Shown here: positions 7,453-49,370 of the stretch, piece by piece
Numbering within the stretch: the stretch's first letter is position 1
How the letters are laid out: the number at the start of each line of letters is the position of its first letter
DNA from: Niallia sp. Man26
Lineage (GTDB): Bacteria > Bacillota > Bacilli > Bacillales > Cytobacillaceae
Length of the DNA stretch: 64,000 nt
NCBI RefSeq assembly: GCF_022049065.2
Contig: NZ_CP095743.1
Coordinates: forward strand, 635,001-699,000
Direction: 5' to 3'
Translations under genes and position numbers: made by a program
Notes under the pieces: model-generated
What the model was told of the DNA's origin: nothing
The model's database searches: none
Seen by the model: only the letters and a program-made list of their open reading frames with translations

Positions 7453-10400
7453 ATGATTAGTCGCAAGAGGGGAAAGACGAGTAAGAAATGGATGTTGCTT
7501 GTGCTCATGGTTGTGTTCTTTTTTTCTACTATTTTTACAAGCAGCCGCCCTGCAGTATCGTACGCAGCAGAACCTTTAGAACCTCAGCAAGCGCCATCAT
7601 CACCTGATGAAGAATCAGAAAAAAGCACAGACAGCTCCAGTGAAACAATCGATAAGGAGCAAAATGAAGCACCTGCTAATTCAGAAGATGAAATAACAGA
7701 AGAAAAGCCTTCAGAAGAAACGGAAACAAAAGCAGCAGAGGAGCCTGTTGTAAAACAAGAGGAAGAAACGAAAACAGAGACTCCAGCTGAAGAAGTAACA
7801 GAAAAGCCTGCTGCAGAAGAACCGAAGCAGGAGGATGTGGAACAGCCGCAAGCGGAAACTTCTGAAGAAGATTTCAGTAAGTACCCCCAGCTGTTAATAA
7901 CAGAAATTTCTCCTGATTCTAAAGGGACTGATTCCTATGAGTATGTGGAAGTGTACAATAATACGAATCAGACACTTAATCTTGGAAGCTATGCCTTTTA
8001 CTATCAATTTACAGATGGCAGCCAAGGTGATAAACTTCTCAGTTTGCCTGACAAGACAATTGCCTCAGGAGAAACCCAAGTGATTTGGTTCAATAAAGAT
8101 GATTTAAACATAAGTGATTTTAATAAGCATTTTCAAACAGCTTTAACAGAAAAGCAACTTCTTTCTTTTAAAGGTGATTTCACTGGATTTGCAAACGGTG
8201 GAAATCGTGCAGTTGCGATAAAGAGCCTTACAGGAACCGAAATCATTTCTGCGAACTACTTGCCTGGAGAAACTGACAATACCGGGTTAACAGTTGCATA
8301 TCGTTATCCTGCTAATGGTACAGTCATGGACAAGCTGAAAACGAAAGCTGCTCCAACACCTGGTACCTTATTGGAAGATCAAGTTCCAGCTAGTCAAGTG
8401 GAGATTAGTCCTCCAGCTGCTGATAATGAAGCTCCGCAAATTTCACATAGCGCAGTTAAAAGCAGCAAACAGGGTACAGCCATTAAAATTGCAGCAAATA
8501 TCGCAGATAATATGAAAATTCCGTCGGCAACTCTTCATTATAAACAAGAAGGGGAAGACACTTATCAGTCTATGCTCATGAGCAAGGATGCCAGCAGCAT
8601 CACCGGCTTTTCTGCCGTAATTCCAGAGGAAGCTGTCCAAGCCAATATTCATTATTACATAGAGGCGACAGATGGAACATCAACTGCCAAAACAGAGGAA
8701 TATGTGATTGAAGTAGCTAAACAGGAAGATACATATAGCTCCATACCGCTTCTTCTAACTGAATTGGCACCGAACTCAAAAGGAAGCGGCACAGACTACT
8801 ATGAATATATTGAACTTTATAACAATACAAACCAGCCAGTATCATTGAAGAACTACTCATTTGCCTACCGCTACACAGATGGCAGCAGGGAAGATGTTAG
8901 TTTTAAAGTGCCTGATGCAGTTATTAAACCGCAATCAACGGTTGTGCTTTGGTTCAATAATGGTGATAAAGCCTTGGCTGATTTTAACAGTCAGTACGGC
9001 ACAAGTTTAACAGAAGAAAACCTGCTGTCCTTTACTGATTCTTTCCCAGGATTCGCAAATGGAGGTAATCGGGCGATCATTATCAAAGATCGTGGCGGAA
9101 ATGAGCTTGTTTCTGCGTCCTATTTGGGAGAAGAAACTAATAATGACGGCAAGGTAATCCAATACTTGTTCCCGAAAAGCGGAACGGAAATGGAAAAGCT
9201 TGAGGTTCTAGCAAGTCCTAACCCAGGCAGTTTGAAACAAGGCCAAGTGCCGACAAAACCAGTTGAGCTTGATCAGTCTGACGATTCGAATCCGCCAACT
9301 ATCAGCCATGAGGCAGTCAGCAGCGGAGAAGCCTTCGCCGATATTGCTGTTGAAGCTGTTGTGAAGGATGATAAGTCAAAACCGTTTGTAACATTGTACT
9401 ATAAGTCAGAATCACAGAATGAGTATCTTTCTTTATCTATGACAGAGGATACAAAGGAAGCTGGCAAGTATAAAGCAGTTATACCTGCTGAAGATGTAGA
9501 TTCTAATATAACGTACTATATTGAAGCAAGTGATGGAGCAAACAGTGCGGAAACAGACAAATTTACCGTTGCGGTCAAAAAGGTTAGTACGGATTATTCG
9601 AAAGTACCAGAGCTGTTTGTGACAGAATTGGTGCCTGACAGCTCGAATGTTAATTCAGCAGATGGCTATGAATTTATTGAAGTCTATAACAATACGAATA
9701 AACCAGTAAACTTTAAAGATTATAAGATTCAATACCGATATGGAACAGATCCTGCAAGTGATGTTGTCTGGCCATCGGTTCCTGAGGATGTTGTTATTCC
9801 GGCGAAAGGGACATTGGTATTCTGGATCATTAATAATGCTAATGGAGATAAGACGGTTGCCGACTTTAACGCTAATTACGGGACTAATCTTATGGAAAAC
9901 AAAGATATTGTCCGCATTCAGAGTGATGGAATGGCGAACAGTGATTTAAGGGGAATTGCCGTTGCAACAAATACACAAGAAGAGATTAGTGTAGCTTACT
10001 ATAATGACGTTCTCGGTGTGGATGATACTGCCGCTAACAAGGGGATTTTGTATAAATATCCGCAGGACGGCTCCACAACTGCAATTAAGGTAAGCAGCGG
10101 TGAAAAGTTAGGAACTCCAGGAAGTGTGGAAGCAAGTCAAGTGCCTGGCAAGCCAGTTGCTGTGGAGGAAGATACAACACCGCCGACAATTGAAAATACG
10201 ACAGCACTAACAGAAACAGGAATAGAGGATATTACAGTTTCCGCAAAAGCAAATGATAATAACGGGGTAAAAACAGTTGCTGTTTATTATCGGACAAATG
10301 GTGAACAGGAATATGAGCGCCTTCTGTTGAAAAAGGATGGCAATGATAATCTCTATACAACGAGCATTTATGCTGCCAACTTTATTGCTAAAGAGTATGT

Positions 10401-13400
10401 CGAGTATTATTTGACTGCATCCGATGGTGTGAATGAAGTGCAGACAGAAAAGCAGCAAATCAAGATTAATAACCCGGAAAATGCAGAAGAGCTTCGCCTT
10501 AATGTAAAGGATGGCAGCATTGTCAGCGGCAATGTTCTGCTGAAAGGAACGTCGAGTAATCATGACGCTGATAAAGTAAAGCTTTTTATTGATGGAAAAG
10601 AATTGTCAGCAGCAATGAACCCGTCACTTGAAACACAAGCCTATTTGGCTGTTGAAATAAGCAGTCTGAATATGTATTTCAAAAATGCAATCACGATGGG
10701 TGATGAAATTATCCAGCTGCTTGATAAGGATAATATGTCATATTGGAAGACGTTTACGATTCCGATTGATGCTGAAAAACTGAAGCAGGGAGTCAATGAA
10801 ATCACAGTCCGTGCCGGAAATAAAGCATCGCCGTTCCAGCTCGAAGAAAGTGAAGAAAACAGGGATGATTATTCATTGCGTAATGTCAGACTTGTGCTTG
10901 CAGACGGAACTATTTTAAGAGACCCAGAGAAGAGTGATCCCAATAAGATTTATGATATGGGAGATGACGGAACGTATCGTCCTTTCGAGCATTTCCATTT
11001 TACACTTAATAGTGAGCAAACTAGCGCTGCTGCCTATAATTGGGACAGTAAAACAGTTGGTGATGGAAAGCACACTATAAGTGCGAAGGATGGACAAAAT
11101 GAAAAGTCTGTTTCCATCTTGGTGGACAATACGGCACCTGCTATTGAAACAAACATGAAAAAGCAAGAATACAGAGGAGCCTTTACCATTAATGCCAGCG
11201 CAAGTGATGAAATTGCTGGAGTAGAATCGTTCCAGATGATGCTTGATGATGAAATAATCGAAGCTCCATATGAAACAGCGTCATCTAAACTTTCTCCAGG
11301 AGAACATGTATTATCTGTTACGGCAGTAGATAAGGCAGGCAATATTGCCGAAAAACAAGTGACTTTTACAGTGAATGATGAAAATCCAACAAAGCCCGAG
11401 CTTGTATCACCTGCAGATAATGCAGAAACTGTAAAAGGCAATCCACTGTTAAAAGTGAAGGTTGCAGATCCGACGAACGATAAGCTGGATGTTTCCTTTT
11501 ATAAGGGCTTTAAATATTCAGCAAGTAGCAGCAATGTAAAAGCCTTTCAGCATGCGAGTGACACAGAGCCGCCAGCCGAGCAAAAGCCAGCAGGTGAGAA
11601 AGCACTGTCTGACAATGAAATTGCGTCGGTTTCAACGCTTGACGGAAAATATTTGACGACAGATTCTGATACACAATTCCCATATCATCGTTTTGATGTC
11701 GAGCTGGATTCATCAGTAGGCGAGGAAGATTTAGTGGAGCTAGAGTGGAGCGGAAAATCGCTTGAAGGCCGAAAAGTATCTATGTATGCGTGGAGTTTTG
11801 TTGAAAACAAATGGAAGATGCTCACATATAAGATAGCTGGCAGTGCTGACTTTGAATTAAAAGCAAATGTAGCTGTCAAAGAGTTTGCGAAGGATTCCAA
11901 AATTAATGTTATTATTCAGGATGAAATCCCAAGCTCTCCAGATGAGTATGATTATACGTTTGTATGGATGTCAGACACACAATATTATGCGGAGAGCTAC
12001 CCGTATATTTTCAAGCGCCAGACAGAGTGGATTGCTGAAATGAAGGACCAGCTGAAAATAAAGTATGTGTTCCATACTGGTGACCTTGTTGATGAAGCAG
12101 ATAAAGAGCAGCAATGGAAATATGCCGATGAATATATGCAGGTGCTTGATGACAACGGCATTCCGTATGGTGTTTTGGCAGGAAATCATGATGTAGACCA
12201 GCTGTCGAATGACTATAACGAATATTATAAATGGTTCGGTGCAGACAGATTCAGCAGCAAGTCTTATTATGGAGATTCCTACAAAAACAACAGAGGACAC
12301 TATGATTTAATTTCATCTGGCGGCAATGATTTTATCATGCTGTATATGGGCTGGGGCGTTGATGATGAGGATATTGCTTGGATGAATAACGTCCTTAAGC
12401 AATATCCAGATCGCAAAGCAATCCTTAACTTCCATGAATATTTACTTGTTTCTGGGAACAGAAGCCCGATTGGTGAAAAGCTGTATGAAGAGGTTGTAAA
12501 ACCAAACAAAAATGTACTCGCAGTATTAAGCGGTCATTACCATGATTCAGAAACACTTATCAGTGAAGTGGACGATAATGGTGATGGAACAGCTGACAGA
12601 GAAGTGTACCAAATGCTTGGTGATTATCAAGGAGGTCCTGAAGGAGGTCAAGGTTATTTAAAACTACTTCACTTTGATCAGGACAATAACCGAATTATTG
12701 TTAACACATACTCACCATATTTAGATGATTATAATTTCTATGATCCAGCAGAATATCCAGGTAAAGATGAGCTTGTTATAAACATGGACCTGGAAGCAGA
12801 GAAAAAGCGGGTTGCAACTGATTATTTCGCTGTTAATGTTTATACGAATGACGAAATCGGCAAACAGGAAAATGTCGACAGCGGCAAAACGGCAGAAGTC
12901 GAGTGGGAAGGGCTTGAAGAAGGTAAGGAATACGCCTGGTATGCTGTTGCAGCAGATGATTATACAGGAAAAGCTGTATCAACTATTTGGACTTTCATAA
13001 AAGGTGCAAAAGAGGACGATACAGGAACTCCTGAGGAACCTTCTGATGGAGATAACGGAGAAACGCCAGGAGACACAGATCCATCTGATGGAGATAATGG
13101 AGAAACGCCAGGAGACACAGATCCATCTGATGGAGATAATGGTGAAATACCAGGAGATACAGGTCCATCTGATGGAGATAATGGAGAAACGCCAGGAGAT
13201 ACAGATCCATCTGATGGAGATAATGGAGAAACGCCAGGAGGCAATTCATCTGACGGAGATGTTGATGAAACACCAGTAAATGCAGATCCATCACATGGAA
13301 ATAATGGAGCAGCCCCGCCAGCTGCTAATCCGTCCAATAATAATAGCAACATTTCAGGAAGCACAACTACAAGTGGAAATGTCAAAACGGACACAGATAA

Positions 13401-13581
13401 TCACAAAGGAAGCAATAGCCAGTATGTAAGATCAGCGAATGATAACAGCGATAATTCCTGGCTGCCAAATACAGCTACGTCGAATTATACTATTCTTTTG
13501 ATAGGCGCAGCTTTAGCTGCAACTGGCATAGTTATTTATGCACACATTAGAAGAAGAGCTAAAATCGTTCAAAATCGTTAA
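7453..13581 (+). CDS. Giant wall-anchored protein: three lamin-tail domains plus calcineurin-like metallophosphoesterase
   Basis: 2042 residues. A signal peptide (1-39) and an acidic Glu/Pro/Thr-rich spacer (40-140) precede three lamin-tail (LTD) modules (about 145-285, 428-590, 712-890; each begins LL(I/V)TE(I/L) and has EYVEVYNNTNQ-like text) alternating with Ig/FN3-like modules. A metallophosphoesterase domain (about 1499-1760) shows MSDTQ, HTGDLVD, AGNHD, NFHE and SGHYHD, the expected metal ligands. A PSDGDNGETPGDTD repeat region follows, then LPNTATSNY (about 2003), a hydrophobic span and RRR. LTD plus phosphoesterase suggests an extracellular phosphoesterase or nuclease, as in YhcR/YfkN-type wall enzymes; the substrate is unknown. 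AGAGGAGG precedes the ATG. Confidence 0.85.
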   Translation: MISRKRGKTSKKWMLLVLMVVFFFSTIFTSSRPAVSYAAEPLEPQQAPSSPDEESEKSTDSSSETIDKEQNEAPANSEDEITEEKPSEETETKAAEEPVVKQEEETKTETPAEEVTEKPAAEEPKQEDVEQPQAETSEEDFSKYPQLLITEISPDSKGTDSYEYVEVYNNTNQTLNLGSYAFYYQFTDGSQGDKLLSLPDKTIASGETQVIWFNKDDLNISDFNKHFQTALTEKQLLSFKGDFTGFANGGNRAVAIKSLTGTEIISANYLPGETDNTGLTVAYRYPANGTVMDKLKTKAAPTPGTLLEDQVPASQVEISPPAADNEAPQISHSAVKSSKQGTAIKIAANIADNMKIPSATLHYKQEGEDTYQSMLMSKDASSITGFSAVIPEEAVQANIHYYIEATDGTSTAKTEEYVIEVAKQEDTYSSIPLLLTELAPNSKGSGTDYYEYIELYNNTNQPVSLKNYSFAYRYTDGSREDVSFKVPDAVIKPQSTVVLWFNNGDKALADFNSQYGTSLTEENLLSFTDSFPGFANGGNRAIIIKDRGGNELVSASYLGEETNNDGKVIQYLFPKSGTEMEKLEVLASPNPGSLKQGQVPTKPVELDQSDDSNPPTISHEAVSSGEAFADIAVEAVVKDDKSKPFVTLYYKSESQNEYLSLSMTEDTKEAGKYKAVIPAEDVDSNITYYIEASDGANSAETDKFTVAVKKVSTDYSKVPELFVTELVPDSSNVNSADGYEFIEVYNNTNKPVNFKDYKIQYRYGTDPASDVVWPSVPEDVVIPAKGTLVFWIINNANGDKTVADFNANYGTNLMENKDIVRIQSDGMANSDLRGIAVATNTQEEISVAYYNDVLGVDDTAANKGILYKYPQDGSTTAIKVSSGEKLGTPGSVEASQVPGKPVAVEEDTTPPTIENTTALTETGIEDITVSAKANDNNGVKTVAVYYRTNGEQEYERLLLKKDGNDNLYTTSIYAANFIAKEYVEYYLTASDGVNEVQTEKQQIKINNPENAEELRLNVKDGSIVSGNVLLKGTSSNHDADKVKLFIDGKELSAAMNPSLETQAYLAVEISSLNMYFKNAITMGDEIIQLLDKDNMSYWKTFTIPIDAEKLKQGVNEITVRAGNKASPFQLEESEENRDDYSLRNVRLVLADGTILRDPEKSDPNKIYDMGDDGTYRPFEHFHFTLNSEQTSAAAYNWDSKTVGDGKHTISAKDGQNEKSVSILVDNTAPAIETNMKKQEYRGAFTINASASDEIAGVESFQMMLDDEIIEAPYETASSKLSPGEHVLSVTAVDKAGNIAEKQVTFTVNDENPTKPELVSPADNAETVKGNPLLKVKVADPTNDKLDVSFYKGFKYSASSSNVKAFQHASDTEPPAEQKPAGEKALSDNEIASVSTLDGKYLTTDSDTQFPYHRFDVELDSSVGEEDLVELEWSGKSLEGRKVSMYAWSFVENKWKMLTYKIAGSADFELKANVAVKEFAKDSKINVIIQDEIPSSPDEYDYTFVWMSDTQYYAESYPYIFKRQTEWIAEMKDQLKIKYVFHTGDLVDEADKEQQWKYADEYMQVLDDNGIPYGVLAGNHDVDQLSNDYNEYYKWFGADRFSSKSYYGDSYKNNRGHYDLISSGGNDFIMLYMGWGVDDEDIAWMNNVLKQYPDRKAILNFHEYLLVSGNRSPIGEKLYEEVVKPNKNVLAVLSGHYHDSETLISEVDDNGDGTADREVYQMLGDYQGGPEGGQGYLKLLHFDQDNNRIIVNTYSPYLDDYNFYDPAEYPGKDELVINMDLEAEKKRVATDYFAVNVYTNDEIGKQENVDSGKTAEVEWEGLEEGKEYAWYAVAADDYTGKAVSTIWTFIKGAKEDDTGTPEEPSDGDNGETPGDTDPSDGDNGETPGDTDPSDGDNGEIPGDTGPSDGDNGETPGDTDPSDGDNGETPGGNSSDGDVDETPVNADPSHGNNGAAPPAANPSNNNSNISGSTTTSGNVKTDTDNHKGSNSQYVRSANDNSDNSWLPNTATSNYTILLIGAALAATGIVIYAHIRRRAKIVQNR
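13039..13287 (+). repeat. Six tandem 42-bp units encoding PSDGDNGETPGDTD
   Basis: Units begin at 13039, 13081, 13123, 13165 and 13207 (42 bp each), with a degenerate 39-bp sixth unit at 13249. The first five are nearly identical at DNA level, so the array is likely to vary in copy number without shifting frame. It forms the acidic wall-spanning stalk of the surface protein. Confidence 0.9.
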
Positions 13582-38534: not shown

Positions 38535-38563
38535 TTTAAAGTTAGAATCTCATTCTGTATAAT
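38535..38563 (+). promoter_or_regulatory. Putative promoter of the exopolysaccharide/c-di-GMP operon
   Basis: TTTAAA (38535-38540), 17-bp spacer, TATAAT (38558-38563). The -10 is perfect and the -35 weak, so an activator may be needed. It would give a leader of about 230 nt. Confidence 0.5.
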
Positions 38564-38640
38564 AAACATTAATCATTATCAACAATACCAATATTACTAG
38601 CTTATTTATGAACATAATAGACCATTTGGACCGCGAAGAA

Positions 38641-38724
38641 AAACAGCTTTTATTTGGGCACTTAAGCTGTTTGGAGCGATTAGTGCAACCGGCCTTTATT
38701 CATGAGTTGGGCTGGTTTTTTTTT
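38641..38724 (+). promoter_or_regulatory. Structured leader with terminator upstream of the GGDEF operon
   Basis: Hairpin 1 is AAACAGCTT / AAGCTGTTT (38641-38672). A terminator hairpin CAACCGGCC / GGGCTGGTT (38686-38717) follows, with nine T residues. proC already has its own terminator, so this one has no gene to end and probably controls read-through into the operon. The conserved bases of the c-di-GMP riboswitches are not clearly present. Confidence 0.6.
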
Positions 38725-38799
38725 GCTTTTGAGGGGAAAGCTAACCAGATAAAAATATAGAGATAACAGGAGAATGCGTAAGGGAATATTTTTAAAGAG

Positions 38800-40419
38800 G
38801 TGTGGATTTTTGATAAATACAAAGGAATATTACTTAAGAAAATGAAGGATCAGCTTACAAGCTGGTTTGATAATAACGAGATAACATTGATTGAAAACAG
38901 AGATGTATACAGGTTTTTGCATTCAATCAAAGGGACGTCTGGCACGTTGGAGCTTGATATGCTTTACGGTATTGCTTCAGAGCTGTTGGCAAAGGTAGAG
39001 AATAGAAAAGACTCATGGTCCATTCAGGAACTAAGGGATTTCTTGAGCGGGCTGATGGAAATCAGTTATGAATATGAGCATTTCCATGAAGAAATTGGCA
39101 AGCCTCCTGCTTTACGTGAAGGGGACGCACCGCTTATTCAAATTATTGATGATGATATTTCTTTGCTTATTTTCCTGAAGGATAAGCTCGAAAGCAAGGG
39201 CTGGATGGTTATTGCAAACACGACAGCGGATAAGGCAATTGAGCAGTATTATAATATGCATCCTGATTGCATCATCATTGATATCAACCTTCAGGATCAA
39301 TCTGGTTACGATGTGCTCAGTGTTATCCAAAATCATACAAACCGGGCATTTATTCCGAAAATTATGTGCAGCATTAAAACAGACAGAGACTCAAGAATTG
39401 AAGCATATAGAAATGGCGCAGATGATTTCATGGAGAAACCGATTGATGTGGAAGAATTTTTAATTCGTGTGGAACGCCATCTCGAAAGGAAAAAGATATT
39501 TGATCAATCGGTTTTGATAGACGAATTAACCCAAGTTTATAACCGCAAATTTCTTAAAGATTCGTACAATCGTTTTATCAGTGATATGGGAAGGCTGAAT
39601 GCAAATGGAACAATCGCTGTGATTGATATCGATTATTTTAAACGAGTTAATGATACATACGGGCATATTGTCGGTGACAAGGTGCTGATGGAGTTCGCTC
39701 AATTTCTGAAAAAGAGTATTAGAAGTACAGATACACTGTTCCGTTATGGCGGGGAGGAATTTGTTATTCTGTTCCAGAGAGCGACAGAGACGGAAATAAA
39801 AGACGTATTGGAGCGCATGCTTGATAAGTTCTCACAAGTTGAATTTACAGACGGAGAGAAAACCTTTAGTCTCACATTTTCAGCAGGAGTGTATCGAATT
39901 GAAAATACAGAGATTGGTTTGCAGGCAGCAATAAAAACAGCAGATGAAGCTTTATATTTGGCTAAGGAGAATGGCAGGGCGAGGGTTGAAACAGCTAATA
40001 AACGCATTATTTCAAAAGCAACAAAGCTTTTGAATGTATCCATTGTTGATGATGATACACTGATTCGCTCCATCTTAATTAATATTTTCAGTTCTTTGGA
40101 GCTTGATAATATTACCCTTGATGTAAAAGCCTATGAAGATGGGATGCAATTCCTTGATTCTGACAGGCTCGCACAAAACGGCATTCATTTCCTAGTTCTT
40201 GACGGCATCATGCCAGTCATGGATGGTCTGGAGATACTGCAAATCGTGAAAAAATCTCAGTACCGTAACAATGTTAATGTGCTTATGCTGACAGGCAGAA
40301 AGAGTGAAAATGATATTGCGGAAGCATTGAAGCTGGGAGCGGATGATTATGTAACAAAGCCTTTCAGTCTGACAGAACTTCAGGCAAGGATTGTCCGCCT
40401 CATTAAAAGGATGGTTTAA
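38800..40419 (+). CDS. HPt-REC-GGDEF-REC diguanylate cyclase
   Basis: 539 residues. Domain order: HPt (10-95, phospho-acceptor His41 in LHSIKGTSG), REC1 (112-225, Asp161, lysine in EKP), GGDEF (232-400) and REC2 (412-535, Asp468). The active site is intact (GGEEF at 317-321) and the product-inhibition I-site RSTD sits just upstream, so it should make c-di-GMP. It is soluble. The start is uncertain: GTG 38800 abuts the AAAGAGG site, and ATG 38842 would trim the start of HPt. It heads the operon and has both the HPt and receiver partners for the kinase at the operon end. Confidence 0.88.
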   Translation: MWIFDKYKGILLKKMKDQLTSWFDNNEITLIENRDVYRFLHSIKGTSGTLELDMLYGIASELLAKVENRKDSWSIQELRDFLSGLMEISYEYEHFHEEIGKPPALREGDAPLIQIIDDDISLLIFLKDKLESKGWMVIANTTADKAIEQYYNMHPDCIIIDINLQDQSGYDVLSVIQNHTNRAFIPKIMCSIKTDRDSRIEAYRNGADDFMEKPIDVEEFLIRVERHLERKKIFDQSVLIDELTQVYNRKFLKDSYNRFISDMGRLNANGTIAVIDIDYFKRVNDTYGHIVGDKVLMEFAQFLKKSIRSTDTLFRYGGEEFVILFQRATETEIKDVLERMLDKFSQVEFTDGEKTFSLTFSAGVYRIENTEIGLQAAIKTADEALYLAKENGRARVETANKRIISKATKLLNVSIVDDDTLIRSILINIFSSLELDNITLDVKAYEDGMQFLDSDRLAQNGIHFLVLDGIMPVMDGLEILQIVKKSQYRNNVNVLMLTGRKSENDIAEALKLGADDYVTKPFSLTELQARIVRLIKRMV

Positions 40420-40420
40420 A

Positions 40421-41470
40421 GTGGCAAAGGAAATTATGTTATTAGTTGTTGTTGCAGTTGGTTCCATCAGTATTTTGCTAATCCTCCTTGCTTACTTAAT
40501 AGCAAGGAAGCTTCTTGAAAACAACAGGCGGCAGCAAATAAATGATTTAAAGGAAAAAATAGCCCAGGATGTCTTCCTGTTCTTACAGGACAGAAGCTAT
40601 GAGCTGTCCTTCTCTGCTGATTCAAACATAGAGAAGGAAGCACTTGAGGAGCTCCTTACAAAGTATTCAGACATACTCGAGGGAGATCAGGAAAGACAAA
40701 GCTTAAGAATTCTTGCAGCAGCTAATCTGACAGGTTATTACCGAAAAAATGTAAATGCAAGGAAATGGAGCACTCGTATGAACACACTGTATCATATTGA
40801 GAGCTTTCAGCTGGTGGAGCTGAAAGAGGAATTAATTAAGTTGGCTGAACAGGAAAAGAAGCGGTCGAAAGAGGAAAAAATCCAGATTTACCGCATCCTT
40901 GCTTCTTTTCAATATACCGATATTTTTATGCTGATTAATAAGCAGGAATACTTAGCAGAAAAGGATTATCGAAGCATATTAACAAGACTGGAAGCACCAA
41001 TTTTTGAAGAGATGATTGCCCGGTTTGATGAATGTGTGGAAGAGCTAAAACTGGCAATTCTCGATGTGATGGGTGTTAAAAAGGATTTGGAGCATATTAC
41101 TTTTTTAGAAAATGTTTTTCAAACCTATGAGGGAGAGCTGAGGCTGAGAAGCTTAAAAGCAATTTCGAACATAGGGATTGTTCCTAATATTGATAACTAT
41201 TTTCCTTTATGCCAATCAAGTGTGTGGCAGGAAAGAATGATGGCGGCAAGACTGCTTGGCTTTGCCAAACAAGAAACAGCCTTGAAGCTATTAAAGGAAC
41301 TGCTGCATGATCAGTCATGGTTTGTAAGATCTCAGGCGGCAGAATCAATTATGAAATATAAAGATGGTACAAAAGTGCTTGAAGAGGTGCTTCAGCATTC
41401 AAAAGATGCCTTTGCTCGGGATATGGCCTGGGAGTGGGTCAATAAAGGAATTTTAAAAGGAGCTAATTAA
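40421..41470 (+). CDS. Membrane-anchored HEAT-repeat protein
   Basis: 349 residues from GTG 40421 with AAAAGGATGG upstream. One N-terminal membrane span (5-27) precedes a long helical cytosolic region. HEAT-like repeats are seen at about 80-110 and 235-345 (LRLRSLKAISNIG, MMAARLLGFAKQETALKLLKELL, WFVRSQAAESIMKY). No enzymatic motif. It is one base-pair from the glycosyltransferase gene, so a scaffold for the polysaccharide synthase is likely; whether it senses c-di-GMP is unknown. Confidence 0.75.
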   Translation: MAKEIMLLVVVAVGSISILLILLAYLIARKLLENNRRQQINDLKEKIAQDVFLFLQDRSYELSFSADSNIEKEALEELLTKYSDILEGDQERQSLRILAAANLTGYYRKNVNARKWSTRMNTLYHIESFQLVELKEELIKLAEQEKKRSKEEKIQIYRILASFQYTDIFMLINKQEYLAEKDYRSILTRLEAPIFEEMIARFDECVEELKLAILDVMGVKKDLEHITFLENVFQTYEGELRLRSLKAISNIGIVPNIDNYFPLCQSSVWQERMMAARLLGFAKQETALKLLKELLHDQSWFVRSQAAESIMKYKDGTKVLEEVLQHSKDAFARDMAWEWVNKGILKGAN

Positions 41471-41471
41471 G

Positions 41472-42884
41472 TTGGTTTTAGAATGGTGGAAAAATGCGGT
41501 ATTGTTTTTTGGCGGTTTTATTTCTATATATATGATTATTATCATCACGTTTTACACAGCTATTCTTATCGTATCAATGATGCAGCTTAGACGAGAATAT
41601 CAGCTTAATAGAAAGCAGTCTTTTGAGGATATTGCTGACGGTCTGTATACAAAGCCTGTTTCGATAATTGTGCCTGCATATAATGAAGAAGCAGGAATTA
41701 TTCCGAGTGTCCGCTCCTTATTGAGCATTGATTATCCGCAATATGAAATCATTGTTGTAAATGATGGCTCTAAGGATCAAACTTTGCAAAAAATGATTGA
41801 GTATTATGATATGGAAGAGGTTCAAAAGGTAGTCCGCAAACAGGTGGAGACGAAGCCAATTAAGGCTATCTACCAGTCAAAGCTCTTGCCGAGACTATTT
41901 CTTATCGATAAAGATAATGGCGGAAAGGCTGATGCTTTAAATGTCGGCTTGAACTTTTCGAACTATCCTTATATATGCTCATTGGACGGAGATTCGGTTT
42001 TAGAAAGTGATGCTTTCCTGAAAGTTATGAAGCCGATTATGGACAGCAATGAGGAGGTAGTTGCTTCAGGAGGAAGCATCCGAATTGCAAATGGCTGTAA
42101 GATCAAGGACGGAAATATATTGGAGATCGGTTTATCGAACCATCCCCTTGTTATTATGCAGATTATTGAATATTTAAGAGCATTTTTAATGGGCCGCATT
42201 GGGCTTAGCAGGCATAACCTGCTGTTAATCATATCAGGTGCCTTTGGTGTATTTTCGAAGCAATGGGTGATTAAGGCTGGAGGTTACCAAACAAATACAG
42301 TAGGGGAGGATATGGAGCTTGTTGTCCGTATTCACCGAATTATAAAGGAGTCTAAGGTCAATAAAAGAATTGTCTATGTGCCTGATCCTGTCTGCTGGAC
42401 AGAGGTTCCAGAGGATATAAAGTTCCTGAGGAGACAGAGAAGAAGATGGCATAGGGGATTGTTTGAAAGCCTTTGGAATCATCGCAAGCTGACATTTAAT
42501 CCGAAGTATGGAAGCATCGGAATGATTTCCTTCCCTTATTTTTGGCTGATAGAGTTTTTAGGTCCAATCGTAGAAATATTAGGATATCTATATACAGTAA
42601 TCGCGATTTTCTTTGGCGGGATTTATTTGGAATTTGCGATTCTTATATTTTTGCTTTCTTGTATTTATGGATCGATTTTTTCAATGGCAGCAGTCTTGCT
42701 CGAGGAATGGAGTCTTCGCAAGTATCCAAAAGTGTCCCATTTATTGAAGCTGTTTTTCTTTTCCCTGACAGAATCTTTATGGTACAGGCCGATGACAGTA
42801 TTTTGGCGCTGTGAAGGGATTTGGCAGCTCATTAAAGGTGAAAAATCTTGGGGGGACATGAGTCGTAAAGGAGTATCTAAATGA
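41472..42884 (+). CDS. Membrane glycosyltransferase family 2 (polysaccharide synthase-like)
   Basis: 470 residues from TTG 41472 (AAAAGGAG upstream). One N-terminal span, a GT-A domain (about 55-330) and about three to four C-terminal spans follow the PgaC/BcsA/hyaluronan synthase plan. Catalytic landmarks are VVNDGSKDQT, CSLDGDSV, GEDMELVVRIHR (catalytic base region) and QRRRWHRG, the Q-x-x-RW motif of processive enzymes. It has no PilZ domain, so c-di-GMP control would need another protein. The stop overlaps the next start (ATGA). Confidence 0.88.
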   Translation: MVLEWWKNAVLFFGGFISIYMIIIITFYTAILIVSMMQLRREYQLNRKQSFEDIADGLYTKPVSIIVPAYNEEAGIIPSVRSLLSIDYPQYEIIVVNDGSKDQTLQKMIEYYDMEEVQKVVRKQVETKPIKAIYQSKLLPRLFLIDKDNGGKADALNVGLNFSNYPYICSLDGDSVLESDAFLKVMKPIMDSNEEVVASGGSIRIANGCKIKDGNILEIGLSNHPLVIMQIIEYLRAFLMGRIGLSRHNLLLIISGAFGVFSKQWVIKAGGYQTNTVGEDMELVVRIHRIIKESKVNKRIVYVPDPVCWTEVPEDIKFLRRQRRRWHRGLFESLWNHRKLTFNPKYGSIGMISFPYFWLIEFLGPIVEILGYLYTVIAIFFGGIYLEFAILIFLLSCIYGSIFSMAAVLLEEWSLRKYPKVSHLLKLFFFSLTESLWYRPMTVFWRCEGIWQLIKGEKSWGDMSRKGVSK

Positions 42885-45800
42885 AAAGAAGGAATACATT
42901 GCTTTTTTTTCTGTTTGTCATGATTGGGCTTGCGGTACTATTAAGTCCTTTTTGGCTCTGGCAGTTTAAAGGGACAAAGGAACTGAATGTGCTGATTATG
43001 GATAAGACTGTTCCTGATAAGACATACAGGGAGCATAACGGCCTTGTTTATATATTAAACAATCAGAAATATGTGAAGGCTAACAAAGACAAATACTTCA
43101 GTCAAAGTGATTATAAAGGCTTTAAACCGAGCGGAGACAACAGCTATAAAATCAGCGAACTCCCTGATGATTTAAGTGATTATGATGTTTTGTATTTGAC
43201 AGATCAGTATGGAGTCTATGAAGAAGAATTTTATGGAAGCAATAATCTTGGGGAGAGATCGGATAAATTATATGGCGGATTGGAAATAGAGGATGTAGAA
43301 AAAATAGAGAATGCTCTTTTCCAATCAGACAATAAAACACTTATTGCTGAATTTAATACGTTTGCAAGTCCTACAAGTGATGAGGCAAGGGAGAAAATCA
43401 CCAATCTGCTTAATGTATCGTGGAGCGGCTGGATCGGCAGGCATTTCGACGATTTAGATGGTGATGAGGTACCTGTTTGGGTAAAGGATAACTATAAAAA
43501 CCAGAACGGCAAGGAATGGAGCTTTACAGGCTCTGGACTTGTACTGATTAATAAGGATGATTATATTGTCGTCTTAAATAACAAGGACTTAACAGACAGT
43601 GGTGTCGCATTTTCCACTACCGAAAAAGGTCAATCTGTCTTAAAGGAAGAGCTGACATCCACTTATGATTACTGGTTTGATATTATCGCAGCAAAAGATC
43701 AAAAAGAGGTGCTGGCCCAATATAAGCTTCCAGTTTCAGAGACTGGTAAAGAAAAGCTGGAAGGTTACGGAATTCCAAGCACTTTCCCGGCAATCGTGCA
43801 AAATGCCAATACACAATACACTTCCTATTATTTTGCAGGAGATTATGCTGATGAAGCAGAAGTTCCAAGTTTATATCAAACAGTCGGCTTTGATTTATGG
43901 AAGAAATATGTCACATACAGAAATTCCTTTTACTGGAATACTTATGTGCCGCTTATGAAAAACCTGCTGAAGGATGGACTTCACAATAATAATACAGAAG
44001 GCAGTACTATAGAGACAGTAAAGGCTGACGGAATGGTAACGAACAGTCGGACAAATGCTGAATATATTCAAGTTCAAAAGGATGGGAAATGGGAAAATCT
44101 CATTATTAAAGGGGTAAATATGGGGATTTCAAAACCAGGCTCCTTTCCAGGTGAAACATCCATTACAAAAGATGAATATTACCGCTGGTTCAAAGAAATC
44201 GGTGCGATGCATGCTAATACAATCAGGGTGTACACGCTTCATCCACCAGGTTTTTATCAAGCCTTGTATGAATATAATCAAAGTGCAAAAGAGCCTCTGT
44301 ATCTTATCCACGGTTCTTGGGTGAATGAAGATGTTCTTACAGAAAAGCAGGATGCTTATTCAGAAGAAGTAGTAGCAGATGCGCAGTTAGAAATTAAAAA
44401 CATGATTGACATTATTCATGGAAATGCTGATTTGCCAAAAAGGGCTGGGCATGCTTCAGGAAAGTATGAGTATGATGTTTCCAAATATGTGCTAGGATTT
44501 ATGCTTGGAACAGAGTGGGACCCTGATGTTGTTAATCATACCGATGAAGAACACAGTGGCTTAGGACAATACAAAGGCACTTATTTCGAGACAAAAGCTG
44601 CATCTCCGTTTGAGATTTGGGTTGCAAAGTTAATGGACTATGCAGCAGATTATGAAGCTAAGCAATATAAGTGGCAGCATACGATGAGCTTTACGAACTG
44701 GGTGACAACAGACTTGCTTGACCATCCTGCAGAGCCGAGTGAGGATGAAGATAAGGCGGTTGTTGATCCCAACCATATAACTAAAACAGATGATTTTCAT
44801 GCTGGCCTATTTGCGGCTTATCATGTTTATCCGTATTATCCAGATTTCTTGAACTATGAAAAAGGCTATTCGACATATAAGAATAAACAAGGCGAGCAAA
44901 GCAATTATGCAGCCTATTTAAATCAATTGCGAAAGGTTCATAATATGCCAGTGTTAGTTGCAGAGTTCGGAGTGCCAGCATCTAGGGGCAAAACTCATGA
45001 GAACGTTAATGGCATGAATCAAGGCTTTATTTCAGAAGAAGAACAAGGAAATATGGATGCGAGTCTGTATCAGATGATTCTTGATGAGAAGTATGCAGGC
45101 GGACTTGTGTTTACATGGCAGGATGAATGGTTTAAGCGAACATGGAACACGATGGATTATGATAATCCGAACAGAAGACCGTTTTGGTCCAATATCCAGA
45201 CAAATGAGCAGCATTTCGGTCTGTTAAGCTTTGATCCTGGTAAATATGAGCCAACCATCTATATTGATGGCAGCACAGAGGATTGGGAAAAGCTGAATGT
45301 GTCGCCACTGTATACTACTGCTAATGCTGATAATAAGGAAGAAAATGATATTCAAGATGTGAGTGTCACGTCTGATGAACAGCAAATCAGCTTTAAATTC
45401 ACTTATAAGGAGCCGGTTGACTTAAACGTTGATCACACATATCTTCTATTAGATACACTTGCAGATCAAGGGCAAATGAGCACAGTTCTTGATGGCAAGG
45501 AAAAAGTGAACACAGATTTTGGTGTCGATTTTGCTGTTAAGATTGGGGAACAGAATGATTCGCATATCCTGATTGACAGCTACTATGATTCTTATTATTT
45601 CCACTATGGGCACTTGCTGAATATGATAAAAAAAGAAAGCTATGCAAGTAAAAAGAACAACGGTGTGTATCATCCAATCAGACTTGCGCTTAATAAAGAG
45701 CTGGAAATACAAGGGGAAAAAATTCCGTTTAACTCCTATGAAACAGGAAAATTATTATACGGAAACGGCAATCCGGAAAGTAAAGATTTCAATAGTCTGG

Positions 45801-46138
45801 CCGATATTAGTGTAAGTAAAGATAAGAAAACAATCGAGCTTCGCCTGCCGTGGGCTTTATTAAATGTGAAAGACCCAAGTCAGAAGGAAGTATTGGCAGA
45901 CTTATGGAAAAAGGGCATGGAAGGCAGCGAAACCATTGACGGCATTTATTTTGCGGTTGTAATGGAAAAAGATAAAAAGATTGTGCAAACATTGCCTGAA
46001 AGAGGCAGTGACAACACTATTCATCAAGAAGACACTAAACTGTTTGAATGGGAAAGCTGGGAAGAACCAGCCTATCATGAACGATTAAAAAAATCCTATT
46101 ATATACTGCAAGAGGCCTTCTCCAAAATAGGGAATTAG
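42881..46138 (+). CDS. Membrane-anchored TIM-barrel glycosidase-like protein
   Basis: 1085 residues. A signal-anchor (6-26) leads to an outside region: an N-terminal domain (40-380), a (beta/alpha)8-like domain (about 400-790) and a C-terminal CBM9-like domain (about 790-1085; begins PTIYIDGSTEDWEKL). The barrel starts IKGVNMGISKPGSFPG, as in GH2/GH5-type enzymes, and carries two well-placed acids: Glu545 in LGTEWDP and Glu695 in LVAEFGVPAS, strand-end positions of the acid/base and nucleophile in clan GH-A. A role in trimming or releasing the polymer made by the adjacent synthase is inferred. The exact GH family is not assigned. Confidence 0.75.
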   Translation: MKRRNTLLFFLFVMIGLAVLLSPFWLWQFKGTKELNVLIMDKTVPDKTYREHNGLVYILNNQKYVKANKDKYFSQSDYKGFKPSGDNSYKISELPDDLSDYDVLYLTDQYGVYEEEFYGSNNLGERSDKLYGGLEIEDVEKIENALFQSDNKTLIAEFNTFASPTSDEAREKITNLLNVSWSGWIGRHFDDLDGDEVPVWVKDNYKNQNGKEWSFTGSGLVLINKDDYIVVLNNKDLTDSGVAFSTTEKGQSVLKEELTSTYDYWFDIIAAKDQKEVLAQYKLPVSETGKEKLEGYGIPSTFPAIVQNANTQYTSYYFAGDYADEAEVPSLYQTVGFDLWKKYVTYRNSFYWNTYVPLMKNLLKDGLHNNNTEGSTIETVKADGMVTNSRTNAEYIQVQKDGKWENLIIKGVNMGISKPGSFPGETSITKDEYYRWFKEIGAMHANTIRVYTLHPPGFYQALYEYNQSAKEPLYLIHGSWVNEDVLTEKQDAYSEEVVADAQLEIKNMIDIIHGNADLPKRAGHASGKYEYDVSKYVLGFMLGTEWDPDVVNHTDEEHSGLGQYKGTYFETKAASPFEIWVAKLMDYAADYEAKQYKWQHTMSFTNWVTTDLLDHPAEPSEDEDKAVVDPNHITKTDDFHAGLFAAYHVYPYYPDFLNYEKGYSTYKNKQGEQSNYAAYLNQLRKVHNMPVLVAEFGVPASRGKTHENVNGMNQGFISEEEQGNMDASLYQMILDEKYAGGLVFTWQDEWFKRTWNTMDYDNPNRRPFWSNIQTNEQHFGLLSFDPGKYEPTIYIDGSTEDWEKLNVSPLYTTANADNKEENDIQDVSVTSDEQQISFKFTYKEPVDLNVDHTYLLLDTLADQGQMSTVLDGKEKVNTDFGVDFAVKIGEQNDSHILIDSYYDSYYFHYGHLLNMIKKESYASKKNNGVYHPIRLALNKELEIQGEKIPFNSYETGKLLYGNGNPESKDFNSLADISVSKDKKTIELRLPWALLNVKDPSQKEVLADLWKKGMEGSETIDGIYFAVVMEKDKKIVQTLPERGSDNTIHQEDTKLFEWESWEEPAYHERLKKSYYILQEAFSKIGN

Positions 46139-46150
46139 GGAGAGAGAAAT

Positions 46151-46519
46151 ATGAAAAGAATATTATTAGCTGAAGATGAAGATGTATTGAGAATGCTGAT
46201 AGTAGATACACTGGAAGATGAAGATTACGTGGTCGATGAAGCACCAGATGGAGAAGAGGCTCTCCAGCTTATCGCAAAAAATGACTATGATCTGTTAATA
46301 CTTGATTATATGATGCCGATTATGACAGGGCTGGAAGTAATCCAAAAGGTTAGAGCGGACGAAGAGAAGAAGCATCTGAAAATAATGATGCTGTCAGCAA
46401 AAAACCAGACAAATGAACAAAACCATATATTAGAAGCTGGAGCAGATTACTTTATGGCAAAGCCTTTCAGTCCGCTCGCACTATTAGACAAAGTAGGGGA
46501 TATTCTTGATGAAGATTAA
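46151..46519 (+). CDS. Single-domain response regulator (CheY-like receiver)
   Basis: 122 residues, receiver only. Acidic pair EDED near the start, phospho-acceptor Asp52 (LLILDYMMPIMTG), Thr/Ser in LSAKN and Lys in AKPFSP. No output domain. It lies 12 bp after the glycosidase gene and overlaps the kinase gene by 11 bp. It may shuttle phosphate between the kinase and the HPt of the cyclase, or bind a target directly. Confidence 0.9.
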   Translation: MKRILLAEDEDVLRMLIVDTLEDEDYVVDEAPDGEEALQLIAKNDYDLLILDYMMPIMTGLEVIQKVRADEEKKHLKIMMLSAKNQTNEQNHILEAGADYFMAKPFSPLALLDKVGDILDED

Positions 46520-49370
46520 TTCCTATATAAGAAAAAGCATATCAAGGCAATTTATGGCCTTAATATGCTTTTTCATTCTACTGTTTATTATTGGAGGGCT
46601 TGTGCTGGTTTATTGGCAAAACTCTGTAAACAATGAGTATGTAAGTAACCGAGAAGAGCTTGTTGAAAAACAAGCGTTAGTCAGACAGCTAGAAACAAGG
46701 CTCAATGATGCAATGTTTAATGTGAGAGGATATTTCGCTTACAATAACACAGCCTTAAAAGAATCGGCAGAAAGTCAGCAGGCTGAGATCGAAAAGCTGA
46801 TAGAGCAGTTTGACCAAAGGCTTGAAACAGAAGAAGACACACTCTTTTCAACAGAGCTGGCGTCGTTTTATCGGTTTTATTTTGATGAAACAATGCCAGA
46901 AGCAATAGCTTACTTTGAAAGCGGAGATAGAGAGGAAGTTGCTGCTATTGCCAATAATGGTGCGACTGAAAGGGTTAATTCTTTTCAAGGAGAAATGGCT
47001 GATTACCTACAGTCTGTTTCGAACTCGCTGAGCGGTGAGGTAAGCAAGCTGACTACTCATATCGCCATCCTGCAAGTCGGTTTTCTAATTTATATCATTC
47101 TAGTTCTTATCGCAGTATTGCTTATCGGCAGAGTGATGGTCAAGAGGATTGGGAAACCATTGACTGATTTTGCAGTTGCAGCCAATGAAGTGGCAAAGGG
47201 AAATGAAGCAGAAATTAAGCATGATAAGAAAAGGCAAGATGAGCTGGCTACATTATCTGTTGCCTTTGAGCGGATGTATGTGAGCATACAAGAGAAAGAG
47301 CAAGATTTGCTTGCACAGAACGAAGAGCTCGTTGCACAGCAAGATGAACTGCAGGCACAGCAGTTTGAATTAGAAAAAATGCTTGAGACTGTACAATCCA
47401 ATGAAGATGCTTTATTGCGCAGAAACAAGCTTATTAACGGCCTGTCGAGCTCTCTTGATAAGCAGAAGGTGCTGGAGAGCATCATCATAAATATGTGTGA
47501 TGTTATTAAGGCAGACAGGGGTATTATCGTAGAAGCAGACAGTGGAGATTTTGCTGCATTTGGCATATCAAATGAAGGAGCAGAGCAATTTAAGAACCAT
47601 CTTCATACAGGGATGTATCATCGTCTGGAAAAGGAAAAGCTTAGCTTTACAATCATCAGAGATTTAGATGTGTCAGAAAAAGGCTATCATCTTGAAAAAG
47701 GCAGGGTGCATGATCTTTATATCCCAATCTTGTCTGCTGCCGGCAGTATTACAGCAATCATGATGCTAAGCAGGTTTGCTTGCGGCTTTACAGAGCTGGA
47801 AATGGATGAATTCAGCACATTAGCTAAACAGATTGAGATATCATTGGATAAGATTCACTTATTCGAACAAACAGAGAAAGACAGATTGCTAAACACAGAT
47901 ATTTTAAATAATGTTCAAGAAGGAATTCAATTAATAAGTCCAAATGGCGATATTATCCATGCTAACAGCAAGTTCTATGAGATCATGACAGGAAAGGGAA
48001 TGCTTGATATATTTGTCGGCCAAAAGTGGCAGGAATGGACAGGGCAGCTGAAGGAAAAATTAGAGGAAACAGACGATCTGATTGCTTATATTAGTAAGTC
48101 TATGAGAGATTCTTCTGCAGAGTCATTCACCTATAAATTGAAGGAAGATAAGATAGTTAAGGTTTATAGTGAACATTTATACAGAGGCGATGAGAAATTC
48201 GGGACTGTTCTCGTATACAGAGATATTACAATGGAATATGAAGTAGACAAGATGAAGTCTGAATTTGTAAGTACGGTCAGTCATGAGCTGCGCACACCTC
48301 TTGCGAGCATTTTAGGTTTTACAGAGCTCATTATTAATCGTGATTTGAAACCAGAGCGTCAGAAGAAGTATTTGAACACGATATACGGAGAAGCGAAAAG
48401 ATTAACAGCCTTGATTAATGACTTCCTTGATGTACAGCGCATGGAAGCAGGCAAGCAGACATATGAGAAAAAATATATTGAAGTGCTGCCAATCATGGAA
48501 AGAGTTGTGGAAAACCAAGCGGTCAATGCAACTAAACACCATATAACAATTCATAATACGGAAAAGAATTCGTTCATACTAGGAGACCGGTCTAAAATCG
48601 AGCAGGCTTTCACTAATATTGTGAGCAATGCCATTAAATATTCTCCTGAAGGCGGAACTATTGATATCAGCCTCTATCAGGAAGATGGCATGCTGAAAGT
48701 AGCTGTGAAAGACCAAGGGTTAGGAATACCAGAGTCAGCTCATGATAAGCTGTTTACAAAGTTCTACAGAATTGATAATTCGGACCGCCGCAAAATTGGC
48801 GGAACTGGATTAGGTCTTGCGATTGTAAAGGAAATCATGCTAGCACATCAAGGAGATATCACAATAGACTCAGAATATGGAAAAGGCAGCACCTTCACAA
48901 TGAGCTTTCCGATTGTGGAATGGAATATGGAAACTTCGGAGAAGGACGCAGTCGCAGATGAAAAGGTCCGTTATAAAGTTATGGTCGTTGAAGATGATTA
49001 CAGCTTGGCTGAGCTGATTATTCAGGAATTGCAGGAAAGCGGCTTCCAAGTTTATTATTCCAAAAATGGAATGGATGGAATTAAGAAAATGGAGGAAGTA
49101 CAGCCAGATGCGCTCGTTCTAGACATAATGCTGGAAGACAGCAGGATGGACGGATGGGATATCATGAAAGCAATGAAAGATTCTGAGTATCTGAAAAACA
49201 TTCCAATTGTCGTTTCTACTGCCTTGGATGAGAAGGAAAAGGGCATTGCATTAGGCGCAATTGATTACTTGGTGAAACCTTATCCGCCAAGTCAGCTTTC
49301 CCGGGCTATTATGCAAACATTGCTCAAAATGGGCAAGATTGGGCAAGTGCTTATCCCGGAAGAACAATAA
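46509..49370 (+). CDS. Hybrid sensor histidine kinase (CHASE3/HAMP/GAF/PAS/HK/REC)
   Basis: 953 residues from ATG 46509; a TTG three bases earlier is less likely. Order: span 1 (12-33), extracellular CHASE3-like helices (35-180), span 2 (about 182-205), HAMP (206-258), coiled coil, GAF (310-440), PAS (450-560), HisKA with His592 (SHELRTP), HATPase with NIVSNAIKYSPEGG and GGTGLGLAI, then REC with Asp872 (LVLDIML). It is the last gene of the exopolysaccharide operon and should feed phosphate to the operon's receivers through the HPt of the cyclase. The signal sensed is unknown. Confidence 0.9.
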   Translation: MKINSYIRKSISRQFMALICFFILLFIIGGLVLVYWQNSVNNEYVSNREELVEKQALVRQLETRLNDAMFNVRGYFAYNNTALKESAESQQAEIEKLIEQFDQRLETEEDTLFSTELASFYRFYFDETMPEAIAYFESGDREEVAAIANNGATERVNSFQGEMADYLQSVSNSLSGEVSKLTTHIAILQVGFLIYIILVLIAVLLIGRVMVKRIGKPLTDFAVAANEVAKGNEAEIKHDKKRQDELATLSVAFERMYVSIQEKEQDLLAQNEELVAQQDELQAQQFELEKMLETVQSNEDALLRRNKLINGLSSSLDKQKVLESIIINMCDVIKADRGIIVEADSGDFAAFGISNEGAEQFKNHLHTGMYHRLEKEKLSFTIIRDLDVSEKGYHLEKGRVHDLYIPILSAAGSITAIMMLSRFACGFTELEMDEFSTLAKQIEISLDKIHLFEQTEKDRLLNTDILNNVQEGIQLISPNGDIIHANSKFYEIMTGKGMLDIFVGQKWQEWTGQLKEKLEETDDLIAYISKSMRDSSAESFTYKLKEDKIVKVYSEHLYRGDEKFGTVLVYRDITMEYEVDKMKSEFVSTVSHELRTPLASILGFTELIINRDLKPERQKKYLNTIYGEAKRLTALINDFLDVQRMEAGKQTYEKKYIEVLPIMERVVENQAVNATKHHITIHNTEKNSFILGDRSKIEQAFTNIVSNAIKYSPEGGTIDISLYQEDGMLKVAVKDQGLGIPESAHDKLFTKFYRIDNSDRRKIGGTGLGLAIVKEIMLAHQGDITIDSEYGKGSTFTMSFPIVEWNMETSEKDAVADEKVRYKVMVVEDDYSLAELIIQELQESGFQVYYSKNGMDGIKKMEEVQPDALVLDIMLEDSRMDGWDIMKAMKDSEYLKNIPIVVSTALDEKEKGIALGAIDYLVKPYPPSQLSRAIMQTLLKMGKIGQVLIPEEQ

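Follow-up and report, generated by a model that had tools for sequence, protein, structure and literature searches.

A cluster of six forward-strand genes in the Niallia sp. Man26 genome (5.7 Mb in six contigs) probably, if by no means certainly, encodes a machine controlled by cyclic di-GMP (c-di-GMP) that makes and exports a polysaccharide, with the predicted diguanylate cyclase doubling as a regulatory subunit of the synthase. The six open reading frames (ORFs) span positions 38800-49370 of the 64,000-nucleotide (nt) stretch analyzed here (contig NZ_CP095743.1, positions 635,001 to 699,000; referred to as the window), and the support at the level of sequence consists of gene order, catalytic and phosphorylation sites, a riboswitch aptamer match, a terminator, and conservation. 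How one cyclase addresses one target is an open question in local c-di-GMP signaling, and in this operon a single chain, encoded beside its likely target, combines a predicted cyclase with a candidate receptor site and a candidate docking domain. Relatives reveal which parts of this regulator are dispensable; together with the one-chain arrangement, their losses therefore make the question testable with few mutants. The putative polysaccharide system is present in many Bacillales genomes, and in the window copy a predicted c-di-GMP riboswitch would drive the cyclase of its own operon. The features of the operon and its leader are as follows.

38535..38563, forward strand: promoter-like site TTTAAA-17-TATAAT (consensus scan, 10/12)
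38620..38703, forward strand: c-di-GMP-II riboswitch aptamer (Rfam RF01786, 61.9 bits, gathering threshold 53.5, E 4.2e-12)
38688..38724, forward strand: intrinsic terminator (38688-38695 pairs with 38709-38716 in the stem, and nine T follow)
38800..40419, forward strand: predicted diguanylate cyclase, HPt-REC1-GGDEF-REC2 (H41, D161, RSTD inhibition site [I-site] at 308, GGEEF at 317, D468)
40024..40416, forward strand: REC2 domain of the cyclase, the portion of this regulator retained most widely (own-family hidden Markov models, HMMs)
40421..41470, forward strand: HEAT-repeat protein, membrane-anchored as read from sequence (349 amino acids [aa] from GTG; Pfam HEAT_2)
41472..42884, forward strand: family 2 glycosyltransferase (GT2), processive type (Pfam PF00535)
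42881..46138, forward strand: 1085-aa barrel protein, predicted to be exported (it has an N-terminal helix, an unnamed domain, and a GH-A-like TIM barrel bearing Glu545 and Glu695)
46151..46519, forward strand: lone single-domain receiver, REC (D52; Pfam)
46506..49370, forward strand: hybrid histidine kinase (TarH-like sensor, HAMP, HisKA with H593, HATPase, REC with D873)

The mechanism that we infer comprises docking, binding, phosphotransfer, a polymer, and feedback. The hybrid kinase would sense a signal and pass phosphate from H593 to D873 and then to H41 of the cyclase HPt domain, from which it could move on to the D161 and D468 receivers and to the lone REC. The GGDEF domain would then produce c-di-GMP beside the synthase, with REC2 docking the cyclase onto the membrane HEAT protein acting as the synthase partner, and c-di-GMP bound at the RSTD I-site would open the GT2 enzyme. 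Relatives that have lost the catalytic motif mostly keep the I-site and may take c-di-GMP from elsewhere. The polymer would exit through GT2, and the membrane-anchored barrel protein would trim or rearrange it. In the Niallia clade, c-di-GMP is predicted to fold the leader aptamer, block the terminator, and raise transcription of the operon, cyclase included, in a positive feedback.

The preliminary description of this region, made from sequence alone, had reported six tightly packed genes, and all six are present with small gaps or overlaps: the spacings are 1, 1, -4, 12, and -14 nt, taking the HEAT start as the GTG at 40421 (a TTG at 40391 is also possible). Its starting coordinate, 38535, is not a gene start and corresponds instead to the start of the promoter-like -35 box. 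The phospho-sites it listed are all intact, although the kinase residues are numbered His593 and Asp873, and not 592 and 872, if the frame starts at 46506.

Pfam recognizes the GGDEF domain of the cyclase (141 bits) and two REC stretches, and the HPt domain scores below its cut-off (18.3 versus 24.6 bits). Of 51 aligned family members, 3 have a gap at the His41 position, and 47 of the other 48 retain the histidine. When GG[DE]EF together with DIDYFK and ND was sought, GGEEF at 317 and VIDIDYFKRVND were found, and the window protein looks like an active enzyme. The RSTD I-site at 308 is also intact. The lone REC (Pfam, 98.9 bits) has D52 in 41/41 sequences, and the kinase, whose PAS_7 match is below cut-off, retains H593 and D873 in 37/37. 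We note that two relatives (L036 and L037) have a well-spaced ATG as cyclase start, which is absent from the window at 38790-38810; the window cyclase would start at GTG 38800 or at a rare codon, and its translation is perhaps weaker.

That the kinase tunes the operon's own cyclase, as had been proposed, fits the pattern of loss among relatives: five of the seven loci without a local REC and kinase have lost the phospho-site of HPt or REC1, as against 3/39 loci with both (46 rows with a long protein; Fisher p 0.0008, kinship uncorrected). On the tree, about three of four independent pairs agree (p 0.25).

Conservation of the six-gene neighborhood had been named as a check, and the order is indeed conserved in Bacillales. 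The barrel protein is encoded by 23 of 61 near-relative genomes and by 25 of 398 genomes sampled across the phylum (own genome counted in each). At 19 of the 22 loci in relatives all six genes follow one another as in the window, counting one with the kinase split into two ORFs (L024) and one with HPt in a separate ORF (L017). The exceptions are L031, without REC and kinase, and the partial loci L033 and L034. At least 590 places in the contig collection encode a relative of the barrel protein, and among the best 80, which were kept as named loci, 25 have all six genes in order (L072 with a split GT2 match) and four have all six in another arrangement (L094, L097, L098, and L132). Seven code for the cyclase, HEAT, GT2, and barrel proteins but for neither REC nor kinase (in L096 the contig stops within the barrel gene), 31 for HEAT, GT2, and barrel only, at the BLAST thresholds used, and three have other gene sets. 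The order kept among relatives shows that the arrangement is not accidental. Two same-genus genomes lack the barrel gene; the site between proC and yitT is empty (<100 nt) in G009 and holds only a kinase fragment in G001, and the operon is therefore gained or lost as a unit. The G001 fragment (L162:7484-8476) matches kinase residues 474-804.

Own-family profiles run over 90 loci bearing the HEAT gene (the two sets of loci share at least seven genomes, so that not all loci are independent) place REC2 in the HEAT-adjoining ORF of 80. Fifty-two of the 90 have the full HPt-REC1-GGDEF-REC2 architecture, three have REC1-GGDEF-REC2 with no HPt in that ORF, 17 have a GGDEF-like remnant with REC2, and eight have REC2 only by HMM; three others have unrelated ORFs and seven have none. 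Outright loss of the regulator gene in many relatives was considered and dropped, as the shortened forms had escaped the BLAST thresholds. In six core-only loci the HEAT-adjoining ORF has a REC preceded by sequence in which Pfam mostly recognizes nothing (four loci), is a REC alone (one), or is unrelated (one). The 21 shortened proteins with a front part have GG[DE]EF in 0/21 and RxxD in 20/21, and RxxD is at the expected place in 35 of 40 tree rows with GG[DE]EF. A GT2 tree was built from 69 rows, without L096, L117, and L128, whose contigs are cut short. On it, loss of GG[DE]EF requires eight changes, six of them forced by starred branches, and accompanies loss of REC and kinase in four to five of six independent pairs and never the reverse (median sign test p 0.0625). 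Loss of catalysis with retention of the I-site is the mark of the c-di-GMP receptor PelD of Bacillus cereus in the passages of PMC7112168 that concern it, and the corresponding part of PMC7064775 describes YdaK of Bacillus subtilis as a degenerate GGDEF I-site receptor. REC2 is the commonest neighbor of HEAT, and the I-site is mostly kept when catalysis goes; on the simplest reading GGDEF-REC2 is a regulatory subunit of the synthase, docked through REC2 and gated by c-di-GMP at the I-site. The earlier proposal of the HEAT protein as a possible adaptor is changed: the receptor is more likely the I-site of the cyclase GGDEF domain, and the docking module more likely REC2.

A simpler view is that the protein is an ordinary PleD-like cyclase feeding the general c-di-GMP pool, sharing the operon for co-expression, with the synthase under another receptor or uncontrolled. 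The GGEEF motif and I-site match what a normal cyclase with product inhibition would have, and the 23 GGDEF matches in the whole genome make a general pool likely, but a mere source of c-di-GMP would not be expected to leave REC2 beside HEAT even where the catalytic motif, HPt, and REC1 have gone, and we consider this view unlikely. PleD-type cyclases also combine REC and GGDEF in one protein with an intact I-site; the window protein differs in starting with an HPt domain and in having another REC after the GGDEF domain, and scores 227.4 bits against a cut-off of 474 with the PleD model PRK09581.

The GT2 protein (Pfam PF00535, 80 bits) has residues D98, D172, D174, E279, D280, Q322, R323, R325, and W326 kept in 82/82 sequences, and the nearest NCBIfam models are PgaC/IcaA and an XrtG-associated GT2, both below cut-off. 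The barrel protein has no Pfam and no NCBIfam matches. Clan GH-A glycoside hydrolases have a TIM barrel with one Glu after strand 4 and another on strand 7; the model of the barrel protein (predicted local distance difference test score [pLDDT] 86.7) has its best PDB matches among GH157 and GH2 barrels and shares that arrangement, with strand 537-542 followed by E545 and strand 691-696 carrying E695. Both Glu545 and Glu695 are invariant in 51/51 sequences. PDB sequence searches with the barrel alignments gave no match at E 1 in one run and a single chance-level match (E 0.19) in another. Four genomes (G189, G205, G514, and G531) have matches to the N-terminal part (residues ~1-380) and the barrel part (~375-1077) at separate places. 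The product might instead be a cell-wall-linked or short modified glycan, or the system might remodel a beta-glucan already present, with no biofilm polymer made; the full processive motif set of the GT2 in all 82 sequences and its nearest NCBIfam models speak against this, and it is about as improbable as the PleD-like view.

The leader contains a match to the c-di-GMP-II aptamer, lying between the promoter-like site and the first gene, that the preliminary description had not seen. The promoter scan is weak alone (44 sites in the region versus a shuffle mean of 33.7), and the -10 region is conserved in 5/5 aligned leaders, the window counted among them. The 3' strand of the aptamer (ACCGGCC) doubles as the 5' arm of the terminator hairpin, which folds at -13.0 kcal/mol, and 9 of 200 shuffles fold equally well. 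This overlap is found in 6/6 leaders that have the aptamer, the five in relatives being four of the same genus (L036-L039) and one of another (L046). The shared strand therefore predicts, by position, an ON switch with c-di-GMP, in which the ligand-bound aptamer blocks the terminator and switches the operon on. Riboswitches for c-di-GMP located before turnover enzymes are known in general, according to the relevant portion of PMC12564702. A GGGGAAAGCTAACCAG-like stretch at 38733-38748, right after the terminator, is present in all 5/5 Niallia leaders that were aligned, with a single change in one of them, and pairing with the 3' arm of the terminator would be possible.

Among 20 relatives' operon leaders, c-di-GMP-II scores above gathering in five, and the other 15 (L040-L045 and L047-L055) have no Rfam match at gathering; the riboswitch was dropped as a defining mark of the system, since most relatives' leaders are without it. 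Matches to tmRNA, Thr-leader, and mir-3327 in the 20 leaders are below gathering and were taken as chance, and covariation in A2 (94.4% of cells paired, 11/12 pairs changed on both sides) was left unused, being expected in Rfam-picked sequences. The leader RNA could be a relic or an OFF switch, as the outer P1 pairs are broken in the Niallia copies and the switch is absent from most leaders examined; however, the window and five relatives score above gathering, and the terminator 5' arm coincides with the aptamer 3' strand in an ON-switch layout that recurs in a second genus (L046), and we give this alternative somewhat less weight than either of the preceding two. Elsewhere, 26 of 60 relatives' genomes have a c-di-GMP-II RNA somewhere (genome-wide, with stricter filters). 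Two c-di-GMP-II matches were found in the Niallia sp. Man26 genome, with 150 of 441 candidates scored. The other (L035:2228-2311, 74.5 bits) is on contig C4 (232 kb) and ends 44 nt before a 96-aa ORF; the adjoining ORF resembles, by eye, a plasmid replication initiator, and equal-scoring matches are present on other contigs in two same-genus genomes.

The HEAT protein (Pfam HEAT_2, 42.5 bits) is modeled by AlphaFold2 (pLDDT 95.9) as a long N-terminal helix followed by helical repeats. Its mean column identity across 66 sequences is 36%, with only E249, D307, and R313 invariant (numbered from TTG 40391). That it binds c-di-GMP itself, as in PgaC-PgaD, with REC2 acting on the cyclase only, is the least probable of the alternatives: HEAT adjoins GT2 in loci where both are found and its N-terminal helix has a sub-threshold PgaD match (PF13994, 14.5 bits versus a cut-off of 27), but the low conservation leaves no obvious nucleotide site, and the structure search returned generic HEAT, armadillo, and designed alpha-Rep proteins, which does not by itself exclude a site.

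We return to the reading of the cyclase as a synthase subunit, against which several observations weigh. REC2 is missing from the neighboring ORF in 10 of the 90 HEAT loci, and four Neobacillus-type loci (L057, L058, L059, and L062) keep REC2 alone; sensing by the GGDEF part is therefore not essential everywhere. Seventeen of the 21 shortened proteins were chosen by a GGDEF profile that itself contains RxxD, and most of the shortened forms belong to a single clade (one starred branch holds 16 tree rows). RxxD persists in only three of six long proteins with a damaged GG[DE]EF (kept in L075, L077, and L083; not in L076, L130, and L131), and the tree associations do not reach significance at 0.05. 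At the D468 site of REC2, 64 of 81 sequences have D, 15 have N, and 2 have S, with one change on the tree. The barrel gene is without a nearby partner in 10 of the 80 named loci (L090 and L110 are on contigs of <9 kb). As for the leader, the riboswitch lies outside the conserved system, occurring in five of the 20 relatives' leaders and in one of the 80 named loci (L056, from the same genome as L038, which is among the five), and three of the six terminator hairpins are matched by 37 to 46 of 200 shuffles. In a Clostridioides difficile paper, one figure legend calls the type II effect negative, contradicting the text of the passages it accompanies.

The window operon shares elements with several known systems. 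YdaN is BcsB-like, B. cereus PelD is a protein of the membrane, and PelF differs in kind from the window GT2. None of the six window proteins matches PilZ or BcsB in Pfam, as the preliminary description had implied in setting the operon apart from systems with such partners, and the one PilZ protein in the genome is encoded outside the operon. The B. subtilis ydaJKLMN system is similar in that a degenerate GGDEF protein controls a putative polysaccharide synthase through its I-site and receives c-di-GMP locally from a cyclase, in the account given in part of PMC7064775, and the shortened regulators of relatives resemble its YdaK receptor. However, the window regulator includes a fused REC2, and with its catalytic motif GGEEF intact beside RSTD it is not degenerate; the operon has no BcsB match and includes its own HEAT protein, a different glycosidase-like protein, a local phosphorelay, and a riboswitch leader. 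The B. cereus pel operon likewise has a degenerate GGDEF receptor, PelD, with an RxxD I-site, and a hydrolase accessory, and its core as described in the relevant sections of PMC7112168 includes neither a HEAT protein nor an HPt-REC-GGDEF-REC cyclase.

The closest NCBIfam score of the window GT2 is to PgaC/IcaA (TIGR03937) of the pga/ica systems, which have a small membrane partner, PgaD in pga. The score is 124.2 bits against a cut-off of 422.3, the partner here is the HEAT protein with its PF13994 match below threshold, and no deacetylase family is matched in the operon. The cellulose synthase model of bcs is further off (TIGR03030, 43.1 versus 699.1 bits), and PilZ is absent from the six proteins. 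The c-di-GMP-II riboswitches of C. difficile are of the same aptamer class as the window leader; the window aptamer differs in preceding an operon with its own predicted cyclase and in overlapping a terminator. The operon had been put forward as a new class; c-di-GMP-controlled, synthase-dependent polysaccharide systems are already known. No description of this operon turned up in searches of open-licence papers, nor did the gene set itself, the GGDEF-REC2 subunit with its series from enzyme to receptor, or a c-di-GMP-II leader on a cyclase-synthase operon. We suggest, tentatively and with some doubt, that GGDEF-REC2 toggles in evolution across this Bacillota synthase family between a phosphorelay cyclase and a receptor with a dead GGDEF domain, the REC2 plug to HEAT-GT2 staying constant, and that the Niallia ON switch closes a positive loop around the enzyme form, with polymer production then a bistable decision.

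Away from the operon, the window codes at 7453-13581 for a protein of 2042 aa that combines three lamin-tail stretches with a domain of the calcineurin-like phosphoesterase type.

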